Positions 5,001 to 61,407 of a stretch of DNA of 64,000 nt are shown piece after piece. Position 1 is the first letter of the stretch. Each line of letters begins with the position of its first letter. A program made the position numbers and the translations under genes. Origin of the DNA: an uncultured Acetatifactor sp. (GTDB lineage Bacteria; Bacillota; Clostridia; Lachnospirales; Lachnospiraceae); contig CATKYJ010000016.1 in assembly GCA_949840885.1 (NCBI GenBank), forward strand, positions 29,575 to 93,574. Reading direction: 5' to 3'. The notes under the pieces were generated by a model, which did no database searches, was not told where the DNA came from, and saw only the letters and a list, made by a program, of their open reading frames with translations.

Positions 5001-6503
5001 ATGAAAATACATATTACCAATCTGTATGGAGATGGGGAGGGAACGGCGGCAATAATTGCACAGCAAAATGTTGCTGGAATTGCGAAAGAACTTGGATTTA
5101 CAGAAATGTCTCTATTGAGTCGTACAACAAGACAGGATACAGATACTGACTTAAGAAAAAGAATGCATGGAATTACGGCGGCGGTAGAAGATGATGATAT
5201 TATAATTTTTCAATCTCCGACATGGCAGGAAGATTCGTTTCGCTATGATAAAATGTTATTGCGAACCATCCGGTTCCATCTCAATGTTAGAATTGCAATT
5301 TTCATTCATGATGTAATACCGTTTATGTTTGGAAGATCAGAAGATATTTGGGAGAAAACAATAGAAATATACAATATGGTTGATCTAATCATTGTTCCAT
5401 CAAAAGCAATGTTGGATGTTTTACGTGAAAAAGGGCTGAAAGTGCGAAAGGTTTTGATCCAGACTATGTTTGATTTCTTATTTAATGGAGAGATTAAACA
5501 GCCAGGATTTCAAAGACAAATTTTTTTCCCAGGGGCACCAGACAGGTTTAAATTTCTCAAATCATGGAACTACGATATCCCAATAAGATTGTTTTGCAAA
5601 AATTTTTCGCATGAGAAACAAAATATTGATTTTGGAGGATGGAAAAATACTACAGAGTTGTTGACAGAGTATGGAAATGGTGGATTTGGTTTGATATGGG
5701 AACAGTCGGATAATTCGGATTACTATAAATGTAATCAACCGTACAAACTATCTTCTTATCTAATGGCAAGAATTCCGGTTATTATACAAAAAGGCATTCA
5801 AAATGCGCAGATTATTCAGGAACGGGGATGGGGATTTGCGGTTGAATCGCTGGAGGAAGCAGTAAGGATAGTAAAAAATATTACAGAGGAACAATATTAT
5901 CAGTTGACTCATAATACAAAAAAAGTCAGTTTTTTGATTAAAAATGGTTATTTTACAAAGGAATTGCTGTTACACGCTGTCAATGAGTTGCTGATGGATG
6001 CTGGAAGAAATGAGAAATCTTTGGTGACAGAAGAATATTCTTTCCTAAAGGATAATGGTCATCGCCCAGAAGCTCTTATTTGTACAAATTCAGATCAGAT
6101 AGAATATTGTGAAGAGTTGATAAAAACAATACCTCAAATGCATTTTCATATTGCTGCGTTTACAAGGATGTCTCCTAAGCTTATGAATATGGGAAAATAT
6201 AGTAATGTAAGTTTATATCCGGGCATTGGAATCGATGGTTTGGATAATCTTTTTGAGAAGTGTGATTACTATTTTGATATAAATCATCAAACTGAGATGG
6301 CGTCCGCAGTGTATAGGGCTTTTTTAAGTAATCAGTTGATCTTTGCTTTTGAGAATACTATACATAACAGAAAGTATGTTGCAAGCAGTCATATTTATTC
6401 GGTAGAGAATGCAGGAAAGATGATTGAAGATATTCGAGCGATTATGGAAAGTAAAGCAGTGATGAATGAACATCTGCAACAGCAAAGGGAAGCTATATTT
6501 TGA
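5001..6503 (+). CDS. Gtf3-like glycosyltransferase fused to a GtfB C-terminal domain
   Basis: N-terminus MKIHITNLYGDGEGTAAIIAQQNVAGIAKELGFTEMSL...VIFQSPTW is typical of Gtf3/Nss; from about aa 345 it matches the GtfB C-terminus (NGHRPEALICTNSDQIEYCEELIKTIPQMHFHIAAFT). Confidence 0.85.
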   Translation: MKIHITNLYGDGEGTAAIIAQQNVAGIAKELGFTEMSLLSRTTRQDTDTDLRKRMHGITAAVEDDDIIIFQSPTWQEDSFRYDKMLLRTIRFHLNVRIAIFIHDVIPFMFGRSEDIWEKTIEIYNMVDLIIVPSKAMLDVLREKGLKVRKVLIQTMFDFLFNGEIKQPGFQRQIFFPGAPDRFKFLKSWNYDIPIRLFCKNFSHEKQNIDFGGWKNTTELLTEYGNGGFGLIWEQSDNSDYYKCNQPYKLSSYLMARIPVIIQKGIQNAQIIQERGWGFAVESLEEAVRIVKNITEEQYYQLTHNTKKVSFLIKNGYFTKELLLHAVNELLMDAGRNEKSLVTEEYSFLKDNGHRPEALICTNSDQIEYCEELIKTIPQMHFHIAAFTRMSPKLMNMGKYSNVSLYPGIGIDGLDNLFEKCDYYFDINHQTEMASAVYRAFLSNQLIFAFENTIHNRKYVASSHIYSVENAGKMIEDIRAIMESKAVMNEHLQQQREAIF

Positions 6504-51031: not shown

Positions 51032-51060
51032 GTTGCTTGCAGCGGGGTCTTTGATTTTAG
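51032..51060 (+). terminator. Terminator-like hairpin after the BMC operon
   Basis: ACCCCGTTGC TT GCAGCGGGGT followed by CTTTGATTTT; another hairpin CGCTGC/GCAGCG just upstream. Confidence 0.55.
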
Positions 51061-51158
51061 CCGGAGGACGCTGCCCTTGCCAGGGCCAGAGGCGAGAAGA
51101 CGAGAGGAGCTTTCAGGAGTTCCTGGAGAAGCATGGCATCTATGAGAGAGATGGATAG
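51060..51158 (+). pseudogene. Decayed C-terminus of an AP2-domain protein related to the gene at 60854
   Basis: Codons for EDAALARARGEK and (after a frame change) FQEFLEKHGIYERDG* match EDAVRARAKGEK...FQEFLEIHDVPGKQK*; TAGGGAGCCG after the stop shared with 61337-. Confidence 0.6.
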
Positions 51159-51264
51159 GGAGCCGCACTGTCTTCGGGGAATGCTGGCCCGGGAGCCCTG
51201 AATACTAAAAATGCCAGTTCTGTAAACGAACTGGCATTTTTTAGTGCAGATGGCATATGCCCTG

Positions 51265-52239
51265 TTATTGGTCAATAAGATATTCTTCGTATAACTTATT
51301 TCGGTACAGCTTATCCTGTGTGGCCCTGACCACGTCCTGCGGCCGCTTATCTTCCATCAACCGCGCAATCAGTTGGGAAAGCCTGTCTTCGCCCTGTTCA
51401 ATGCCTTCCTTTAAACCTTCCTTTAAACCTTCTCTTAAGCCTTCTCTTTTTATTGTCTTTGCCTCATATTCCAAAATTTTTCCACCCATAACCGTTTTCA
51501 CTCCTTCCTTGACAGAATTGTATTTTACAGCGATATGTTCCAATACTTTATTCGACATGTCAATAATGGTACATCTTGTATATTCGCTGATGGCTCCATG
51601 ATGCAAGAGTTCTTCCAGCTTATTGTTAATCTGCCGGTAGTCTTCCTGCAATGTCCTCAGTTTCGCTATATCTTTCTCATATTCCTCAAAACGTGCTTCA
51701 TGGGAAAAGATGTGGAAAGGGATCAAAAGCAGGAGGTTTTTCCAAAAAATCTCTTCCAGGGTGTATTGCTGGGATTTCATTACCCGGATATCAAATTCCA
51801 CGGTTCCGCCTGGTGATACCATCCTGATTTTCAGCGTATTAGGTGTTGATGTAGTATGCCTTAGAAATAACACGGCGGAATGCGGCAGTGTCACTGTAAG
51901 GACATTTCCCTTGATTTCTCCTTCATCCAGGGCGATTTGGGTGTCGTATTCAAAAAATCGGACCAGCATACTGTTGTCAGCAGTGCTCTGGCATTCCAAA
52001 TGATATTTTTTTGTTTCTTTTCCTTCTATCTTAAAACTGGTATCAGTAATCCGTTCAGCTTCATTTCCGCCCTGCTGGTTCAGGAAATGTTCATTTGGTG
52101 AGAAGATGATTCTTTCCTGCCCTGAATAATGTTCCCCGAACACTTCGTTTATAACAGGGATAATCAGAGAACTGCAGTCATTTAGCAGGGTACGGAACAC
52201 ATCATCATAAGGTGTACTTGTTATTCTTACACTTTCCAT
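51265..52239 (-). CDS. Rpn-family PD-(D/E)XK nuclease / putative transposase
   Basis: YDDVFRTLLNDCSSLIIPVINEVFGEHYSGQE...EAERITDTSFKIEGKETKKYHLECQST; C-terminal REGLREGLKEGLKEGIEQGE repeats. Confidence 0.88.
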   Translation of the reverse strand: MESVRITSTPYDDVFRTLLNDCSSLIIPVINEVFGEHYSGQERIIFSPNEHFLNQQGGNEAERITDTSFKIEGKETKKYHLECQSTADNSMLVRFFEYDTQIALDEGEIKGNVLTVTLPHSAVLFLRHTTSTPNTLKIRMVSPGGTVEFDIRVMKSQQYTLEEIFWKNLLLLIPFHIFSHEARFEEYEKDIAKLRTLQEDYRQINNKLEELLHHGAISEYTRCTIIDMSNKVLEHIAVKYNSVKEGVKTVMGGKILEYEAKTIKREGLREGLKEGLKEGIEQGEDRLSQLIARLMEDKRPQDVVRATQDKLYRNKLYEEYLIDQ

Positions 52240-52416
52240 TGTTATCCTCCTTTATTCTATTTTATCACATTGTATATATTTACTCAATCTCAAAAGCAGA
52301 ATCATCATATCCGTCATCATATCCGGATAAAATCTCGAAATAAAAGAAATACATGAGCACATATGGTGTATAATACGGTAAAAACCTGAGAACCCCATAC
52401 AAAGGAGAAGAGAAAG

Positions 52417-53427
52417 ATGATGTACAGGCTTACCAAAGAGGCAGTGGCAGGATACCAGAGGCACATGGAGCGGGAGGAGTACGCCCCGGAGACAGTAAAG
52501 AAGTACTTGCGGGACATCCGCGCGTTCGCCGCATGGGCCGTGGGAGCAGAGGGCAGCGGGGGGAAAGCGGCCGGTGAGGGCACCGCCGATGGCGGCAGAT
52601 CCGGCAGGCCCATGGACGGAACAGTCGGTGAACGCGCCGATGGTCCCGCAGACGGAGCCGATGGCTGCAGCGCCGGGCCAAGAGGCAGCGGGGCTTCAGA
52701 GCCCCGGGAGGGCATAGCGGTGGAAAGGGGGACGGCAGCGGCATGGAAAGGGTACCTGGTGTCCGGAGGATATGCGCCCGTCACGGTCAATGCTATGCTC
52801 TCGTCCCTCAACAGCCTTTTCCGGTACCTGGGCTGGGAGGAGTGCCGTGTGAGGTTCCTGAAAGTCCAGCGAAAGACGTTCCGCGACCAGGGGAGAGAGC
52901 TAAGCCGTGCGGAGTACAGACGGTTGCTGGGAGCCGCGGGGGAGGCGGGGGACGTCAGGCTGTCGTTGCTGCTGGAGACTATGTGCGCCACCGGGATCCG
53001 CGTGTCCGAGGTGAGGTACGTCACCATGGAGGCCCTGGCGCGCAGGAGAGCGGACATCTCCCTGAAAGGAAAGGTGCGTACCATCCTTATCCCAGGGAAG
53101 CTGTGCAGGAAGCTTAAGGACTATGCCAGGAGGCAGGGCATTACGTCGGGGGAGATATTCATCACCAGGAGCGGGAGGGGGATGTCCAGGCGGCAGATCT
53201 GGCAGGAGATGAAGAAACTGTGCAAAAGGGCACAGGTGAGTCCCGGCAAGGTCTTCCCCCACAACCTGCGCCATCTCTTCGCCAAGGTCTTCCACAAGGC
53301 CTGCGGGGACATCGTAAAGCTTGCGGATGTGCTGGGACACAGCAGCATAGATACCACCAGAATCTATCTGATTTCAACCGGGGAGGTGCATGAGCGGCGG
53401 ATGGAAAGACTGGGACTGATCAGCTGA
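52417..53427 (+). CDS. Tyrosine recombinase (XerC/D-like) with low-complexity insertion in the N-terminal core-binding domain
   Basis: GIRVSEVRYV, KGKVRTILIP, HNLRHLFAK, LGHSSIDTTRIYL: complete R-K-HxxR-H-Y set. Confidence 0.9.
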   Translation: MMYRLTKEAVAGYQRHMEREEYAPETVKKYLRDIRAFAAWAVGAEGSGGKAAGEGTADGGRSGRPMDGTVGERADGPADGADGCSAGPRGSGASEPREGIAVERGTAAAWKGYLVSGGYAPVTVNAMLSSLNSLFRYLGWEECRVRFLKVQRKTFRDQGRELSRAEYRRLLGAAGEAGDVRLSLLLETMCATGIRVSEVRYVTMEALARRRADISLKGKVRTILIPGKLCRKLKDYARRQGITSGEIFITRSGRGMSRRQIWQEMKKLCKRAQVSPGKVFPHNLRHLFAKVFHKACGDIVKLADVLGHSSIDTTRIYLISTGEVHERRMERLGLIS

Positions 53428-53451
53428 CAGTGGACAGAATCGCCATTTCGT
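53426..53451. repeat. 26-bp recombinase-adjacent repeat, copy 1
   Basis: GACAGTGGACAGAATCGCCATTTCGT; 23/26 identical to 53753-53778. Confidence 0.75.
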
Positions 53452-53663
53452 GACTATATTCGCCCACGAGAAGACAGACTTCTCTCGATTACGGTTCCAG
53501 TATAACACGGCGGGGGGCGCTTTTCAAGTATATTTTATGACGACGGCCTCTAAAAAGTGACGAAAATAACGGCATATTATCATCAGAAAGGCGCAAAAAG
53601 GAAACACCATGCGGATTTTCCATGGCGCTTTTTCATAGTGTGCTCCTGACGGCAGGGTCCGGG

Positions 53664-53693
53664 GGTGCGGATACTTCCGCACCTCCTTTTTTT
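53664..53693 (+). terminator. Rho-independent terminator between the recombinase genes
   Basis: GGTGCGGA TACT TCCGCACC TCCTTTTTTT. Confidence 0.8.
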
Positions 53694-53752
53694 GTGCGGG
53701 AAAGGGGCATATGCGTTTTTCCGGGTGGCCATGGAGGCTTTCCGGGGGGAGG

Positions 53753-53778
53753 GACAGTGGACAAAATGGCGATTTCGT
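53753..53778. repeat. 26-bp recombinase-adjacent repeat, copy 2 (core flipped)
   Basis: GACAGTGGACAAAATGGCGATTTCGT; core AATGGCGATT is the reverse complement of AATCGCCATT in copy 1. Confidence 0.75.
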
Positions 53779-53863
53779 TGTGTCAGTCCCCTTGCTCTGA
53801 AAGTCTGATCAGACCAGGGGTGGAGACGTAGGGAAGCCATGGTTTTAGAAAGGAGGGGCAGGG

Positions 53864-54814
53864 ATGGATATCCTGGGACAGGGAACGGAGGAGCTGACGC
53901 CGGAACTCATGGAGGGGTTCCTGACTGACCTCCTGGACAGGGGACGCAGCCAGGTGTCGGTAAAGGCGTACCGGAATGCGCTGACGGCGCTCTACACCAG
54001 CCTGCCGGAGGGGAAGCGGGTCACGGCCGCCACAGGGAGCCGGTGGCGCGGCATTCTGGAGGGAGGCGGAGCCTGCCCGCGGACGGTTAGCGCAAGGATG
54101 TCCGTCTGGAACAGCCTCGTCAGGTACTTAGGGCATCGGGACTGGCAGGTGGAGGGGCTCAACTCCTCGGGAGGGGATATCCAGCCGGAACTGACCCGGA
54201 AAGAGTATCTGCGTCTGCTGTCGGCGGCAAAACAGCTAGGGCAGGAGAGGACGTACCTCCTGATCAAGGCGCTGGGCGGGGTGGGGCTTAGGCTCCAGGA
54301 CCTCCCCGGACTCACAGCCGAGGCCGTCCGCGAGGGGATTGTGCGGATTGGAGGGACGTGCAGTGAGAAAACGGCACAGTTGAGGGGCATATGCAGTGAG
54401 GGAGCGGCACAGCCGAGGGGCATATGCAGTGAGAAAGCGGCACAGCCGAGGGACATATGCAGTGAGGGAGCGGTATACCCCGGAAATTCCGGCAGTGAGC
54501 GGGTGCGTATCATCCACCTGCCCGCTGTGCTCCAGAGGGAACTGAGCGGGTACATACAGCGGCGCGGTATCCGCAGCGGCCCCGTCTTCGTGACATCCGG
54601 GGGCAGACCCCTGGACCGGTCCAACATAGGCCGGTGCATCAGGCAGGTAGGCCAGGCCGCCCGGGTGGCGGAGGAAAAGGCCAGTCCGAGATGCCTGTGG
54701 AAAATGTACCAGTCCACCCAAAAGGGGATTCGGGACAACGTGTCCCTGCTCATCGAGCAGGCCTACGAGCGCCAGCTGGAGAGAGAACAGATGGCGGTGG
54801 GCTGGGAGGAGTAG
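53864..54814 (+). CDS. Degenerate tyrosine recombinase-like protein with internal 11-aa repeats
   Basis: N-terminal SAM-like domain and GLRLQDLPGLTAEAV retained; HxLRH is replaced by SPRCL and the C-terminal LGH..Y motif is absent. Confidence 0.75.
   Translation: MDILGQGTEELTPELMEGFLTDLLDRGRSQVSVKAYRNALTALYTSLPEGKRVTAATGSRWRGILEGGGACPRTVSARMSVWNSLVRYLGHRDWQVEGLNSSGGDIQPELTRKEYLRLLSAAKQLGQERTYLLIKALGGVGLRLQDLPGLTAEAVREGIVRIGGTCSEKTAQLRGICSEGAAQPRGICSEKAAQPRDICSEGAVYPGNSGSERVRIIHLPAVLQRELSGYIQRRGIRSGPVFVTSGGRPLDRSNIGRCIRQVGQAARVAEEKASPRCLWKMYQSTQKGIRDNVSLLIEQAYERQLEREQMAVGWEE
54359..54480. repeat. 33-bp in-frame tandem repeat (about 3.7 units) inside the degenerate recombinase gene
   Basis: TGCAGTGAGAAAACGGCACAGTTGAGGGGCATA and three further copies/partials. 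Confidence 0.9.
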
Positions 54815-54978
54815 GAGAAGCCTAAGTACACCGGAGCTGAAGACTTCGGTAAAGTTGTGATCAGGGAGGGGAGGACATGAGGGGGACGATCTTGGCGGGG
54901 AAAGCCCCGCCGGGCCAGAAAGCCCTGCAGTTACAGCCATCGCGGACGGCAGGGCGGAAGAGGAGGCGGTGGGAAATG

Positions 54979-55120
54979 GGCAAACCGTTGGAAATGGCGG
55001 GACGCAAAGCCACAGGGACTAAGGCGCTTTATCAGATGCGGCAGTTTCGGTATCGTTGCTTTACTGACAGGTACCCTTGCTGCAGGCCTCTGGCAGAAAC
55101 AGCTATGTCAGCCTGGCCGC
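54979..55120 (+). promoter_or_regulatory. c-di-GMP-I (GEMM-I) riboswitch-like aptamer A
   Basis: GGCAAACCGTTGGAAATGGCGGGACGCAAAGCCACAGGGACTAAGG ... GTCAGCCTGGCCG. Confidence 0.8.
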
Positions 55121-55131
55121 TAATTATAAAA

Positions 55132-55226
55132 GGCAAACCGCGGGAAACGGCGGGACGCAAAACAAGGGGCCTAAAGCGTGCGCCTGGACACGCGTCACAG
55201 CGCAGGCCACGGCAGCCCGGTCACTG
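55132..55226 (+). promoter_or_regulatory. c-di-GMP-I (GEMM-I) riboswitch-like aptamer B (variant core)
   Basis: GGCAAACCGCGGGAAACGGCGGGACGCAAAACAAGGGGCCTAAAG ... GGCAGCCCGGTCA. Confidence 0.72.
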
Positions 55227-55236
55227 ATTATAATTA

Positions 55237-55330
55237 GCAAACCGTTAGAAATGGCGGGACGCAAAGCTATGGGGGCTAAGGTGTTGGAAGTTCGTTGGAC
55301 AATGCTATGCCAGCCCGGCCGCCGGATACT
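55237..55330 (+). promoter_or_regulatory. c-di-GMP-I (GEMM-I) riboswitch-like aptamer C
   Basis: GCAAACCGTTAGAAATGGCGGGACGCAAAGCTATGGGGGCTAAGG ... GCCAGCCCGGCCG. Confidence 0.8.
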
Positions 55331-55373
55331 TTGCATCCGATTGATTCTTTTTTGCAAAGAAAGGAATGAAACT

Positions 55374-58300
55374 ATGAGACATAAAAAACGAACATACAGG
55401 AGAGGACTGGCTTTGCTCCTTGCCATAGCTATGTGCATCAGCATACCGCAGCTTCCGGCAGCGGCAGCGGAGGCACCCGGCCATGAGCATAATGAGGAGG
55501 GCTGGTCGTGCACCTATGTGGAGGATGAGACGCTTGCATGCGAAAATGCCGAGCACAGCCATACGGAAGAATGCTATGGGGAAGAGGGCAGGACGCTTGC
55601 ATGCGAAAATGCCGGGCACGCACATGAGGCAGAGTGCTATGACAAAGAGGGCGTACTTGCCTGCGGCACCGAAGATCACATCCATGGGAACGGCTGTTAT
55701 GAACAGACTGCGGCGAGCCTTATATGCGGACTTGACGAACACGGCCACACCCGGGAATGCCGTCAGGATGCGGGCCGCTGGGAATGTGTGCAGAATACCG
55801 TTCCTGAGGAAGAGGAAAGCGCCGGCGGGGAAGCAGAAGCGCCTACTGTCGAGGACGTGACGGAAAGCGAGGACGTGACAGAAAGCGAGGACGTGACAGA
55901 AAGCGTAGATAGCAGTATCCTGTCCGATGCGGAGACCCAGGCGGAACCGTCAGATGGCCAGGAGGCTGAGGCTGAGGCAACGGCAGAAGAAGACGCAACT
56001 GTGGTATATGCCGCCGTAGACGAGCTGAATGCCGCTTTTGAGGCTGTGGACGAGATTTTGGAGAGCGGCGACGTCCAGGCCGGCATTGATGCCCTGGACA
56101 ATTATATCGCCATCTACAACCGCCTGTCCCCCGAGGATCAGGAAGCCCAGGCCGAGGCGCTGGCTGCAGCGGTAGCCTATAAGGAGACTTTGCAGGGCAG
56201 CCTGGAGGGCGAGCCGGATGCGGATGTTGATACGTTGGTTTATGTGACATATAAATCAACGATCACTTTTTATCCGGGCGATGGCAGCCCTACCGGAGTA
56301 AATATGTCCGTGGGTGATCACTACCAAGGAAACTGGTATGTAAAATCTATCAGTACAAGCGAAGTTACCTTTGGATCACAGTACGGTGAGCACAATAATT
56401 CGTTTATAATTCCGGCGCCGGAAAAAATTTGGCAGGGGGTATCGAGTAACTATAATACTGTTGCCGCCTACAGTACTGCATTTAATGGTGAGAAGCATAT
56501 TGGAGCCAGTGCTCTGTTGATTTACACCGGCGGACATGCAACCTATAAAAATGTGGTGAATAGCGGTGGAAACCAAGGCAGCGGCACCACACCCTCGAAT
56601 CCGTACGCGAATGTTGTCCATGAGTATTACATGAATGGACAATTGACAGGCAGCATAACTGGGACTTTTTCTTTATCTGCAGGGGCTACTGACAGGGTAC
56701 CAGCCACAAATCTTGGCAGTAGTGTTCCGCGGCAGCCAAATTATAATGGGAATACCTATACTTATAAGAGTGTTAGTCCCAGTTCGATTAGTGTTGCTAA
56801 AGGAGCTACCGGTTACCAAGGTACATTTACCCTGCGGTATGAGCGTACGGAGACCAAGTACTACGGTCAACTGGTTTATCACTCCAATGACAATAGAAAT
56901 CTTACAAGTATGGACAGCGTCTTGGAGAGTAATGGAAACGTGTACACGGTCTGGGTCAAAGATACCAACCCGTTTGCGAGCACCGGAAAGAGGCTCCTGG
57001 GCTGGGACACCAACCCTAATGCAGCCACTCCCGCATATAAGCTGACGAGCAGGTACTCTGTTCCTTGCAATTCTACAGACAGGAACAATCCTACTCAGAC
57101 GCACTTATATGCAATCTGGGAAAACGACAAGGTTACCCTGACCTATCATGCCAATGGCGGCACTAACGCACCTGCTGCTGTGACCAAAGACAAGGGAAGC
57201 AGTGTCGAGATTGCGAGCAAAGGAAACATGAGCCGGCCCGGTTACGACTTTTTGGGCTGGAACACCAACGAGGGTGCGACCGACGCGGATTTTGTGCCAG
57301 GAGATGGAATAACCCTGAACGCCGATACCACACTGTATGCTGTGTGGACACCTGTACCCGTGGCAACCGAAAGGCTGACCGTAAAAAAGGTCTTTCAAAA
57401 TCTGGACGAGATTCCTGATGATTTCTCAATCATTTGGACGGAGACTCATGGAGAGACCGGGGATGTTGTTACCAAAACACTGACCAAGAGCAATGCCGCA
57501 ATTGACGGCAATACCTTAACCTGGCAAGTTCCGCATTTCTTTATAGCGGAAAGTGGAGGTATTAAGCACGATGTGACAGTGACCGAGAAATGCGATGTGG
57601 ATGGGTATACCTACACAACAGCGGTGAACCCCACTGCGTGGAAAGTTAATGGGCATACGATAAGCCGGAAAATTTCCGCTAATGTAGTTAACTCTACTCT
57701 GCTCATTACCAATACCTACACCAAGGACACCCCGCCTGTGGTCACTGCACCAAAACTGACCATCACCAAGACGGCTGATAAATCTGTCGTCAAGGTGGGC
57801 GAGAACGTAGTCTACACCATCACCGTGAGCAACAACGGTAATGCCGCGGCTACCGATGTGGTGGTGACGGATGCTCTGCCCAATGGATTAAGCTGGGACA
57901 GCGATGCTGCGAACAACGGTTCTTACGACAGCGGCAGCCGCACCGTTCAATGGAAAATCGATAGGATTGATGTGGGCGGGAGCGCAACCGTGACACTCAC
58001 AGCCAGGGTTAATACGAGCGGCGAAATCAGCAATACGGCCAGTGCCAAGAGCGAGGAGACTCCCGACCCTGTGCCCAGTGTGCCCGAAGTCATCAAGGGC
58101 GTGAATATGTCCATCAAGACAGACAAGAGCCACGGCGACGTGGATGTGACCACAAAGAACGGTGTTGCCATTGTGCCCTACACCGTGACGGTGAGGAACA
58201 CAGGCGATGACCTGTACGGCCTGGACATCATCGACAAGCTGACAGACATAAAGGTGCAGGAGGGCAACAATACGCTCACCGCGGATGATAGCGTCAAGAT

Positions 58301-60776
58301 CGCCTATACGAATGTCAAGGTAAACGGTAACACCGTAAATGCCGCATTGGATGCACACAACGGCGGCATTGTCAACGCAATCGCCCGTAGTGACGACTTT
58401 AAGGCGAATAATACTGTGACCTTGACCTACGATATCGAGATTGAGAACCTGACCGACAAGCAGATTGTGGTAAGTCTGACGAACACCGCCAAAGGCGGGT
58501 CCTGGGCCAATGCCCCTGCTGTCAGCACATTCCGCATGGCACGCGCGGCGGACGACTACGATGTCACGGACTCGGCATCTACCAGCGTCAGCGTTGGCAG
58601 CGCTACCGTGGTTATCCCGCCAAAGACTGAGAAAGTGAATGTCACTGTCAAGTTCGTAGACGAGGACGGCAGCGAAGTCCCTGACTCTGGAATCACCCTG
58701 GAGGTCGATAAGGGCCAGGACTATGATGTGACCAAGGATACCGAGAGGATTCCCGCAGGTTACGAGGCCAACGGCAATCTTACCGGCGACCCTGTCAAGG
58801 GGAAAGCCGATGCCGACAAGACCATTATCGTGCCGGTGAAGAAAGCGGACACTGCACCTGAAACCACGGTGCTGACGGCCGAAAAGACAGCCGACAAGAC
58901 TTCTGTCAAGCCCGGCGAGGACATTGAATATACCATCACGGTGAAGAATGAGGGTGACAATGCAGCCAGGGGAGTGAAAGTTACCGACGTACTGGATAAG
59001 AACCTGACCTGGAAGAGCGCGGCGCTGTCCGTAAATGACGGTCAGGCGGTAGCGGTTACGCCTGCAGACAGTGTCTACACCATCGGCGAAATCCCTGGAA
59101 AGCAGGGGGAGGAACCTGGAAAGGCTGTACTGACTATCACGGCGACCGTAAATGCGGATACGAATACCGATACGGTTAAGACAATTTCAAACACTGCGTC
59201 AGTGAACTATGAGAACAAGCCGAACAAACCTGTTGATCCGGAGAACCCTGACAAGCCCACGGAGCCCATTGATGACCCTGAGAGCAATCCGGTGGTGATA
59301 CCCGTGGTGCCTGGCGAGGAGCCCGAGAATCCTGAGGAACCTGAAGAGCCCGAGGAGGCTCCCAAGGTGACATGGCTGGACGAAAACGGAGAAATTGTAA
59401 AGCAAATACCGATGCCTGAGGGCGGCGACTACAGCGCCGAGTATCCTGAGGAGAACCCGACGGAAAACGGCCACTGGGGAAATCCGGAGACGGATGAAGA
59501 CGGAAACGTGACAATCCGGTGGATAGTGGATGAGGAGCCCGAGAATCCTGAGGAACCCGAGGAGGCCCCCAAGGTGACATGGCTGGACGAAAACGGAGAA
59601 ATCGTAAAGCAAATACCGATGCCTGAGGGCGGCGACTACAGCACCGAGTATCCTGAGGAGAACCCGACGGAAAACGGCCACTGGGGAAATCCGGAGACGG
59701 ACGAAGACGAGAACGTGACAATCCGGTGGATAGTGGATGAGGAGCCCGAGAATCCTGAGGAACCTGAGGAGCCTGATGAGGAACCCGAGGAGCCCGGTGA
59801 GAATCCCGAAGAGCCTGGTGAGAATCCTGAGAATCCTGAGGAGCCTGGTGAGGAGCCCGAAGAGCCCGGTGAGGAGCCTGGGAGCCCCGAGGAACCTGAG
59901 AATCCCGAGGAGGCCCTCAAGGTGACATGGCTGGACGAAAACGGAGAAATCGTAAAAGAGATACCGATGCCTGAGGGCGGCGACTACAGCGCCGAGTATC
60001 CTGAGGGGAATCCGACGGAAAACGGCCACTGGGGAAATCCGGAGACGGACGAAGACGGAAACGTGACAATCCGGTGGACAGTGGACGAGGAGCCCACAAC
60101 TCCAATTGTGCCCGATAATCCCACCAATCCGGCAGACCCCGCGGATCCGGTAGCTCCGCCGCAGGCGGACGACACACCGACAGCGGCGGATCCCACGCCG
60201 GCCGTGCCTGTACTTCCGGTTGCGGCAGCACCGGCGACTCCCGCGGTGGTGACGCCGACTGTTACGCCGGTAGCGCCGACCGTACCTGCACAGGAGCCGG
60301 AGGAAGAAACGCAGATTCCGGACGAGGAATTGCCTCTTGCGGACGCCGCCCAGGAGTCGGAGGAAAGGGCAGACGCGGAGGAAGCCGAGATTGAAGATCT
60401 GGATGAGGAAGCAGTACCTTTGGCAGCAGGGGACAGCGGCAGGAAGTGGGCGCTTGTGAACTTCGCCCTGATGAACCTTGCGGTCTTTGAATCCCTGATG
60501 CTGCTGATCGGGTACTTCGTCAATACCAAGAAAGCCTCCGAAGAGGAGGAAGAGCAGAAGAAGCTGAAAAAGAAAGGCATCATGCGTCTGATCAGCCTAC
60601 CTGTAGCAGTCATTTCCGTCATAGCTTTCTGTTTGACGGAGGACATCACCCTCCCGACAGGGTTTGTGGACCGCTGGACCCTGCTGATGGCAGTCATCGC
60701 CATTGTGCAGACAGTTGTAGTGGCATTTTCCCGGAAAAAGGGAGAGGAAGAGAATAAAGAAAGGGCAGCCTTGTAA
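55374..60776 (+). CDS. Very large repetitive cell-surface protein (signal peptide, Cys/His repeats, InlB-type, DUF11-type and MucBP-like repeats, Pro/Glu-rich repeats, C-terminal TM anchor)
   Basis: MRHKKRTYRRGLALLLAIAMCISIPQLPAAAAEA signal; ATG 55374 with AAAGGAA SD; track start at 55077 lies inside the riboswitch region. Confidence 0.85.
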   Translation: MRHKKRTYRRGLALLLAIAMCISIPQLPAAAAEAPGHEHNEEGWSCTYVEDETLACENAEHSHTEECYGEEGRTLACENAGHAHEAECYDKEGVLACGTEDHIHGNGCYEQTAASLICGLDEHGHTRECRQDAGRWECVQNTVPEEEESAGGEAEAPTVEDVTESEDVTESEDVTESVDSSILSDAETQAEPSDGQEAEAEATAEEDATVVYAAVDELNAAFEAVDEILESGDVQAGIDALDNYIAIYNRLSPEDQEAQAEALAAAVAYKETLQGSLEGEPDADVDTLVYVTYKSTITFYPGDGSPTGVNMSVGDHYQGNWYVKSISTSEVTFGSQYGEHNNSFIIPAPEKIWQGVSSNYNTVAAYSTAFNGEKHIGASALLIYTGGHATYKNVVNSGGNQGSGTTPSNPYANVVHEYYMNGQLTGSITGTFSLSAGATDRVPATNLGSSVPRQPNYNGNTYTYKSVSPSSISVAKGATGYQGTFTLRYERTETKYYGQLVYHSNDNRNLTSMDSVLESNGNVYTVWVKDTNPFASTGKRLLGWDTNPNAATPAYKLTSRYSVPCNSTDRNNPTQTHLYAIWENDKVTLTYHANGGTNAPAAVTKDKGSSVEIASKGNMSRPGYDFLGWNTNEGATDADFVPGDGITLNADTTLYAVWTPVPVATERLTVKKVFQNLDEIPDDFSIIWTETHGETGDVVTKTLTKSNAAIDGNTLTWQVPHFFIAESGGIKHDVTVTEKCDVDGYTYTTAVNPTAWKVNGHTISRKISANVVNSTLLITNTYTKDTPPVVTAPKLTITKTADKSVVKVGENVVYTITVSNNGNAAATDVVVTDALPNGLSWDSDAANNGSYDSGSRTVQWKIDRIDVGGSATVTLTARVNTSGEISNTASAKSEETPDPVPSVPEVIKGVNMSIKTDKSHGDVDVTTKNGVAIVPYTVTVRNTGDDLYGLDIIDKLTDIKVQEGNNTLTADDSVKIAYTNVKVNGNTVNAALDAHNGGIVNAIARSDDFKANNTVTLTYDIEIENLTDKQIVVSLTNTAKGGSWANAPAVSTFRMARAADDYDVTDSASTSVSVGSATVVIPPKTEKVNVTVKFVDEDGSEVPDSGITLEVDKGQDYDVTKDTERIPAGYEANGNLTGDPVKGKADADKTIIVPVKKADTAPETTVLTAEKTADKTSVKPGEDIEYTITVKNEGDNAARGVKVTDVLDKNLTWKSAALSVNDGQAVAVTPADSVYTIGEIPGKQGEEPGKAVLTITATVNADTNTDTVKTISNTASVNYENKPNKPVDPENPDKPTEPIDDPESNPVVIPVVPGEEPENPEEPEEPEEAPKVTWLDENGEIVKQIPMPEGGDYSAEYPEENPTENGHWGNPETDEDGNVTIRWIVDEEPENPEEPEEAPKVTWLDENGEIVKQIPMPEGGDYSTEYPEENPTENGHWGNPETDEDENVTIRWIVDEEPENPEEPEEPDEEPEEPGENPEEPGENPENPEEPGEEPEEPGEEPGSPEEPENPEEALKVTWLDENGEIVKEIPMPEGGDYSAEYPEGNPTENGHWGNPETDEDGNVTIRWTVDEEPTTPIVPDNPTNPADPADPVAPPQADDTPTAADPTPAVPVLPVAAAPATPAVVTPTVTPVAPTVPAQEPEEETQIPDEELPLADAAQESEERADAEEAEIEDLDEEAVPLAAGDSGRKWALVNFALMNLAVFESLMLLIGYFVNTKKASEEEEEQKKLKKKGIMRLISLPVAVISVIAFCLTEDITLPTGFVDRWTLLMAVIAIVQTVVVAFSRKKGEEENKERAAL

Positions 60777-60853
60777 AGGCATGCCTGGAATGGACAGGCC
60801 GCGGTAACATGCGGCTCGTCCTGTAAAGACCATGGACGGAAAGGAGGAGAGAG

Positions 60854-61339
60854 ATGGAAACCAGGAAAAATGACAGCGGCACTGGTTCGGAGAGCATCCG
60901 GCGAAAAGACTGGCTCGGTAAGCGCTTCGGCAATCTCACCGTAGTTTCCTACGATGGCCGGGACGGCGGGAAGCATTACTGGCGCTGCCTCTGCGACTGC
61001 GGGAAAGAAACCAGGTCATGCCAGTCCAACCTGCAGAGCGGACATACCAGAAGCTGCGGCTGCAGGGTAGACCCGGTAAACACCAGGCACTTTGTGGAGG
61101 GCACCTGCCTGGAGAGCATCAAAAGTAAGAAAGTGTTCGCCAACAATACCAGCGGGGTGCGGGGAGTCTATCGGAATAAGAGAACCGGCCGCTGGTCCGC
61201 CCAGATCACGTTCCAGGGCAGGACCCGGTATCTGGGCAGCTTCGAGGAATTGGAGGATGCTGTCCGGGCCAGAGCCAAAGGCGAGAAGATCTTCCAGGAA
61301 TTCCTGGAGATACATGATGTTCCCGGAAAGCAAAAGTAG
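60854..61339 (+). CDS. AP2-domain DNA-binding protein
   Basis: LGKRFGNLTVVSYDGRDGGKHYWRCLCDCGKETRSCQSNLQSGHTRSCGC then NNTSGVRGVYRNKRTGRWSAQITFQGRTRYLGSFEELEDAVRARAKGE. Confidence 0.88.
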   Translation: METRKNDSGTGSESIRRKDWLGKRFGNLTVVSYDGRDGGKHYWRCLCDCGKETRSCQSNLQSGHTRSCGCRVDPVNTRHFVEGTCLESIKSKKVFANNTSGVRGVYRNKRTGRWSAQITFQGRTRYLGSFEELEDAVRARAKGEKIFQEFLEIHDVPGKQK

Positions 61340-61376
61340 GGAGCCGAAAGATATAAGGGCATCTTGGTTACAAGTT

Positions 61377-61407
61377 ACGGTATGGTCTTTAGGACTATGC
61401 CGTTTTT
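61377..61407 (+). terminator. Rho-independent terminator after the AP2 gene
   Basis: ACGGTATGGTC TTTA GGACTATGCCGT TTTTC (two G.T pairs). Confidence 0.7.

Follow-up and report, generated by a model that had tools for sequence, protein, structure and literature searches.

Gene content of the locus

The window, by which we mean the whole 64-kb stretch of DNA analyzed here, carries a series of plus-strand genes and RNA elements that begins with int1 (52417..53427), coding for a 336 aa tyrosine recombinase of the XerC/D type (PF00589, E = 7.7e-22). The series ends with the gene for a 161 aa AP2-type zinc-finger protein (60854..61339; its PF00847 match, E = 1.9e-5, is below the cut-off), which is probably a DNA-binding regulator. 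Between the two lie, in order, a putative invertible promoter segment of 345 bp (53434..53778); a second recombinase homolog of 316 aa, Int2 (53864..54814), which retains the recombinase fold but has lost the catalytic residues and would be the first gene of the switched operon; three tandem c-di-GMP-I aptamers; and a giant surface protein, or adhesin, of approximately 1800 aa (55374..60776). A sequence-only reading of the window had listed an Rpn-like nuclease, two recombinases, a c-di-GMP leader, an adhesin and an AP2 protein. All of these genes are present, and the leader is confirmed as the three aptamers, each scoring above 35 bits; the adhesin start is corrected to approximately 55374. 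The invertible promoter at 53434-53778, the catalytic loss in Int2 and the triple riboswitch were overlooked. The Rpn-like frame (51265-52239, minus strand) is weakly assigned, with TIGR01784, below its cut-off, as the sole match. No Rpn gene occurs near any other Int1 locus examined, and we reject it as a member of the module, where the earlier reading had placed it; it is a neighbor only.

The adhesin has a signal peptide, DUF11 repeats, List_Bact_rpt repeats, PEPN-rich repeats and a C-terminal multi-TM FILTED domain, the last of which is 75% identical to the corresponding region of an adhesin at a related locus, L058; no LPxTG motif was found within 55374-60776. A second FILTED surface protein (an 875-aa frame) is encoded elsewhere in the same genome (L026, G000:C7:92011-94531), with one c-di-GMP-I riboswitch at its start, and no Int1-type gene was found beside it.

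The three aptamers all lie on the plus strand and exceed the RF01051 gathering threshold of 35 bits. Aptamer 1 extends from 54969 to approximately 55122, as judged from a 38.1-bit Rfam match confined to 54969-55057; its true 3' half is probably at about 55098-55120, following a long P3 insert, as in L058, where two tandem aptamers separate Int2 from the FILTED adhesin and the first of them has a 52-nt P3 insert. Aptamer 2 (55122..55228, equivalent to G000:C16:84696-84802) scores 60.4 bits, and aptamer 3 (55226..55326), which ends approximately 48 nt 5' of the adhesin start, scores 61 bits. A terminator-like hairpin follows at 55323-55339, for which L058 shows no subsequent T tract. A CUUUGC strand, conserved in the window and in L058, could pair either with the aptamer core or with a GCAAAG beside the Shine-Dalgarno sequence.

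The segment between Int1 and Int2

The 345-bp segment lies directly 3' of Int1 and is bounded by two 18-bp candidate recombination sites in inverted orientation, IRL (ACAGAATCGCCATTTCGT, 53434..53451, plus strand) and IRR (ACGAAATCGCCATTTTGT, 53761..53778, minus strand). A position weight matrix built from 11 relatives only, with the window left out, returns these two as its best matches in the entire 64 kb, on opposite strands, at 25.9 and 23.0 bits, respectively; the third-best match scores 16.1 bits. The latter is an isolated near-match at 5618-5635 with no convincing partner nearby, and a search of the genome itself reported no further site with fewer than three mismatches. In the clade to which the window belongs, the form of the sites is ACARAATYRYCATTTYRT. 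Of the 18 positions, 3 differ between IRL and IRR, and the central 11 bp (AATCGCCATTT) are the same in both; scored by itself, the inverted repeat of the window reaches 11.5, as do 1.8% of random points. An identical GACAGTGG, possibly an accessory sequence, immediately precedes both sites (53426-53433 and 53753-53760). Since the arms are also near-palindromic, the result is an apparent 26-nt direct repeat (53426-53451 and 53753-53778), which we dropped as a functional unit, the functional core being inverted.

Inside the segment, a predicted sigma-70-type promoter with an extended -10 (TTGAAA-17-TATACT, 53499..53527, minus strand) points away from the adhesin and antisense to Int1, while a terminator-like hairpin of the intrinsic type with a T7 tract (53661..53693, plus strand) faces the adhesin operon. 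Both are consensus matches, from which promoter function and the assignment of ON and OFF states are predicted; the assembly appears to have captured the OFF orientation. Plus-strand terminators also occur in four other loci of putative OFF orientation (L060, L061, L064 and L066). The segment has the features of an inverton: inverted repeats (53434-53451 and 53761-53778) flank a short intergenic stretch, an internal consensus promoter faces the cargo in one orientation among relatives, both orientations occur across related loci, and the adjacent site-specific recombinase, Int1, has an intact active site.

Evidence that such segments do invert comes from comparison of related loci. The promoter TTGAAA-17-TATACT lies in reverse in six loci (the window, L060, L061, L062, L064 and L066) and forward in three (L001, L058 and L065), and local alignment of whole segments divides the loci in the same way. 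To illustrate, the segments of L064 and L058 align with a score of 23 in the same orientation and 317 in reverse, against a shuffled maximum of 36. The flanks of these two loci are collinear (89% on the int1 side, 81% on the right), and the stretch from repeat to repeat alone is exactly reversed (83% over 323 bp). This implies that inversion of such segments occurs in nature, and by comparison the window copy probably inverts as well. A partial version of the same pattern is seen between L001 and L062, both from genome G014, and L001 is also reversed around the promoter relative to the window.

Int1 itself has an intact open frame and, by alignment, keeps the R, K, HxxR, GH and Y of the catalytic set, and we infer that it is the invertase of the adjacent switch. 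A low-complexity insert (52544-52720) lies between its two domains; it keeps the frame, and its length differs among relatives. Relatives of Int1 were gathered from genome contigs, from the genome itself, from related genomes and from genomes of the family, where Int1-type genes occur in 58 of 397 sampled. An inverted repeat scoring at least 15 is found near the int stop codon in 32 of the 40 Int1-family loci with enough sequence, as compared with 0.13% of 793 random points. Its first arm starts between -11 and +122 nt from the stop and its second lies 210-525 nt downstream, just 5' of a giant surface gene, an AP2 gene, a BTAD regulator or Int2. In the family-wide set, in which several loci are counted twice, the repeat is recovered in 18 of 34 tests. 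Contigs often end just 3' of the int stop (nine loci within 400 nt), which is suggestive of mixed orientations in the assembly, although in some loci contigs also end just upstream of int.

The association of Int1 with adhesins recurs in many Clostridia. Across the other loci, cargo behind the switch consists of giant surface proteins and of AP2 or BTAD regulators; in L140 and L141 it comprises polysaccharide genes, going by visual inspection of the sequences. The switch is immediately followed by AP2 in L011, L013, L014, L025 and L063. BTAD/SARP-type regulators of approximately 400 aa, each with a C-terminal domain that lacks an assignment, lie behind it in L059, L060, L066, L067, L137, L138 and L145; PF03704 was tested in two of these. 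The genome itself holds two further Int1 switches. One, at C16:10478 (L025, G000:C16:10169-19751), has its promoter forward and AP2 first, followed by a 1944-aa surface protein; the other, at C11:53312 (G000:C11:34000-64000), has its promoter in reverse and a 2225-aa LPxTG protein.

Int2, a recombinase homolog without catalytic residues

A catalytic tyrosine recombinase is recognized by the series R...HxxR...H/W...Y, which Int2 lacks. In all 15 members compared, PRxL(W/R) stands in place of HxxR, with neither a GH box nor a tyrosine nucleophile present; R-I is retained only in the closer members. The fold nevertheless appears to be kept, as a structure model (pLDDT 72, from six sequences) matches XerA and XerD, the match to XerA (5hxy) covering the whole recombinase fold with an E-value of 7e-10. 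Pairwise dN/dS values of 0.09-0.32 (dS is close to saturated between distant members) indicate purifying selection on Int2 in at least seven genomes. Convincing relatives occur in G040, G019, G396, G398, G370, G180 and G439, and the Int2 proteins form a single clade (100/100), in a tree whose long branches leave deep placements unsure. A set of 33-nt tandem repeats (54359-54480) in the Int2 gene of the window keeps the frame and is absent from relatives.

Int2 directly follows the switch in the window's own genome (G000), in G040 (two cases), G019 (at least three), G396 (two) and G370, and where it lies beside Int1 it is the first gene behind the switch (the window, L058, L060, L061, L065, L066, L137, L138 and L141). 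Other Int2 genes have no Int1 nearby (L139, L140, L142 and L143). Inverted repeats sought upstream of such orphans were good in L140, and weak or absent in L139, L142b and L142c. L142 (G180:C88:1-14000) is a tandem array of three Int2-like genes with no Int1 beside it; two of these are followed by a surface gene of approximately 1000-1100 aa, and the third is at the edge of the stretch. Int2 is dispensable for switching, because relatives of the L001 type bear a switch of the same kind without it.

Conservation of position and sequence without the chemistry argues for a regulatory role. Most likely, Int2 biases or stabilizes the switch by binding to Int1 or to the recombination sites, or else acts as a DNA-binding regulator. 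A stronger form of the first proposal, which we advance tentatively and consider rather less than an even bet, is that Int2 is the founding member of a class of pseudo-recombinases whose production is encoded by orientation: expressed only with the promoter turned toward the operon, these would bias the rate of flipping by binding to the sites or to Int1, giving a switch that senses its own state, with the tandem riboswitches grading the output. On the other hand, Int2 may act outside recombination altogether, as a recombinase-derived transcription regulator of its operon or of other surface genes, which would be compatible with an invertible promoter. The occupation of the same position behind the switch by DNA-binding regulators (AP2 and BTAD/SARP, PF03704) in other loci is consistent with this, as is the distance of some Int2 genes from any Int1. 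However, Int2 directly follows the switch wherever both are present, and its close kinship to a recombinase favors the binding of recombination-like sites; we regard a role outside recombination as possible but not the better guess.

A proposed phase-variation module and its precedents

Taken together, the computed sites, the two orientations across related loci, the conserved architecture, the catalytic loss and the purifying selection lead us to read the locus, with a probability of roughly nine in ten, as a self-contained phase-variation module in which Int1 inverts a 345-bp promoter segment controlling Int2, the riboswitches and the adhesin. Under this model, Int1 would invert 53434-53778 between the two 18-bp sites. 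In the OFF state, the internal promoter would fire leftward, antisense to int1, and the terminator would stop read-through into the operon; after inversion to ON, transcription, predicted to start near 53720, would cover Int2, the three riboswitches, the adhesin and probably the AP2 protein. Through the riboswitches, c-di-GMP would provide a graded second control on the adhesin. Int2 would be produced chiefly in the ON phase, and would then bind the sites or Int1 and bias or stabilize the switch, or regulate as a DNA-binding protein. The idea of a switchable, c-di-GMP-linked adhesin system, raised in the sequence-only reading, is supported, and the system has its own recombinase; the two recombinases are not equivalent, Int1 having kept its catalytic set and Int2 having lost it.

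It is unlikely that the switch of this particular strain is degenerate, once invertible and now locked in OFF with diverged arms. The mismatches between IRL and IRR, which score below the sites of most relatives, would fit such decay, as would the weakness of aptamer 1 over its Rfam match and the low-complexity or repeat insertions in both recombinase genes, but Int1 keeps every catalytic residue in an open frame, the central 11 bp of the two sites are the same, the reading frames downstream of the switch are unbroken and purifying selection acts on Int2. Still less credible is an active Int2 that flips the switch with or opposite to Int1, in the manner of FimB and FimE: its whole recombinase fold, its place adjoining the switch and the R-I of the closer members speak for it, against the uniform loss of HxxR, GH box and tyrosine.

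The sequence-only reading had further proposed that AP2 copies recombine, thereby delimiting or moving a block of approximately 10 kb. The decayed AP2 C-terminus on which this drew is real (51062-51158) and is similar to the final part of the AP2 gene, which stops at 61339 (51062-51135 versus 61251-61315, 74% identical, one 8-nt indel, E = 2e-10), with TAGGGAGCCG after the stop common to both. Mobilization or duplication of such a cassette is nonetheless highly improbable, as the homology is decayed and spans only about 95 nt, further AP2 paralogs in the genome repeat the C-terminus, AP2 in the Int1-switch-adhesin units of relatives is variously first in the operon, further downstream or absent, neither long end repeats nor alternative junctions in relatives were found, and the DNA that moves is the 345 bp enclosed by the sites of Int1, not 10 kb.

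Promoter inversion is a familiar route to phase variation in Bacteroides, E. coli and C. difficile; to our knowledge, it has been little worked out in Lachnospiraceae. At fimS of E. coli, the tyrosine recombinases FimB and FimE are encoded beside the invertible promoter of a surface organelle. The window locus is similar in having a tyrosine recombinase beside an invertible promoter, a surface target and two recombinase paralogs. At fimS, by contrast, the two recombinases are enzymatically active and encoded upstream of the switch; the second paralog of the window is a dead protein whose gene belongs to the switched operon.

Closer in its logic is C. difficile, where, for both cmrRST and flgB, one operon is under a c-di-GMP riboswitch as well as an invertible DNA element (PMC8844915). 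As in the switch proposed here, the cmr element contains a promoter that drives transcription in its ON orientation (PMC8844915). In C. difficile, however, the riboswitch (class II for cmrRST) is upstream of the invertible element, and some transcription bypasses the switch (PMC8844915), whereas the window has three class-I aptamers downstream of the switch, behind Int2. Inversion there is by RecV (PMC8844915); here, the recombinase gene is adjacent and a dead recombinase is in the switched operon. Among Clostridia, inverton group 139 and invertase group 35 tie invertons to a nearby tyrosine-type recombinase, according to the available part of PMC11892184, and by that description the window switch very probably belongs to the same broad class. 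The same part of that report mentions neither a dead paralog behind the inverton nor a riboswitch, both of which the window has, and it describes invertases near invertons as generally non-regulatable, whereas Int2 of the window is in a regulatable orientation. Three tandem c-di-GMP-I aptamers are also known from Bc3-5 of Bacillus thuringiensis, in the 5' UTR of cspABCDE (PMC4759541). The abstract does not tie Bc3-5 to an invertible promoter, behind which the window aptamers sit; as compared with this triple array, aptamer 1 of the window has a probable long P3 insert, and L058 has only two aptamers.

In the open-access literature, we found no description of a dead recombinase paralog within a switched operon. 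Phase-variable invertible promoters are already known, and the most interesting point of the locus is the conserved pseudo-recombinase Int2 in the operon that is switched. One giant adhesin would here be placed under three stacked controls, namely DNA inversion, c-di-GMP sensing and a conserved dead recombinase. If Int2 does bias inversion, a stochastic switch would gain an encoded memory of its state. The presence of a dead recombinase and riboswitches within the switched operon suggests a further layer in the control of phase variation.
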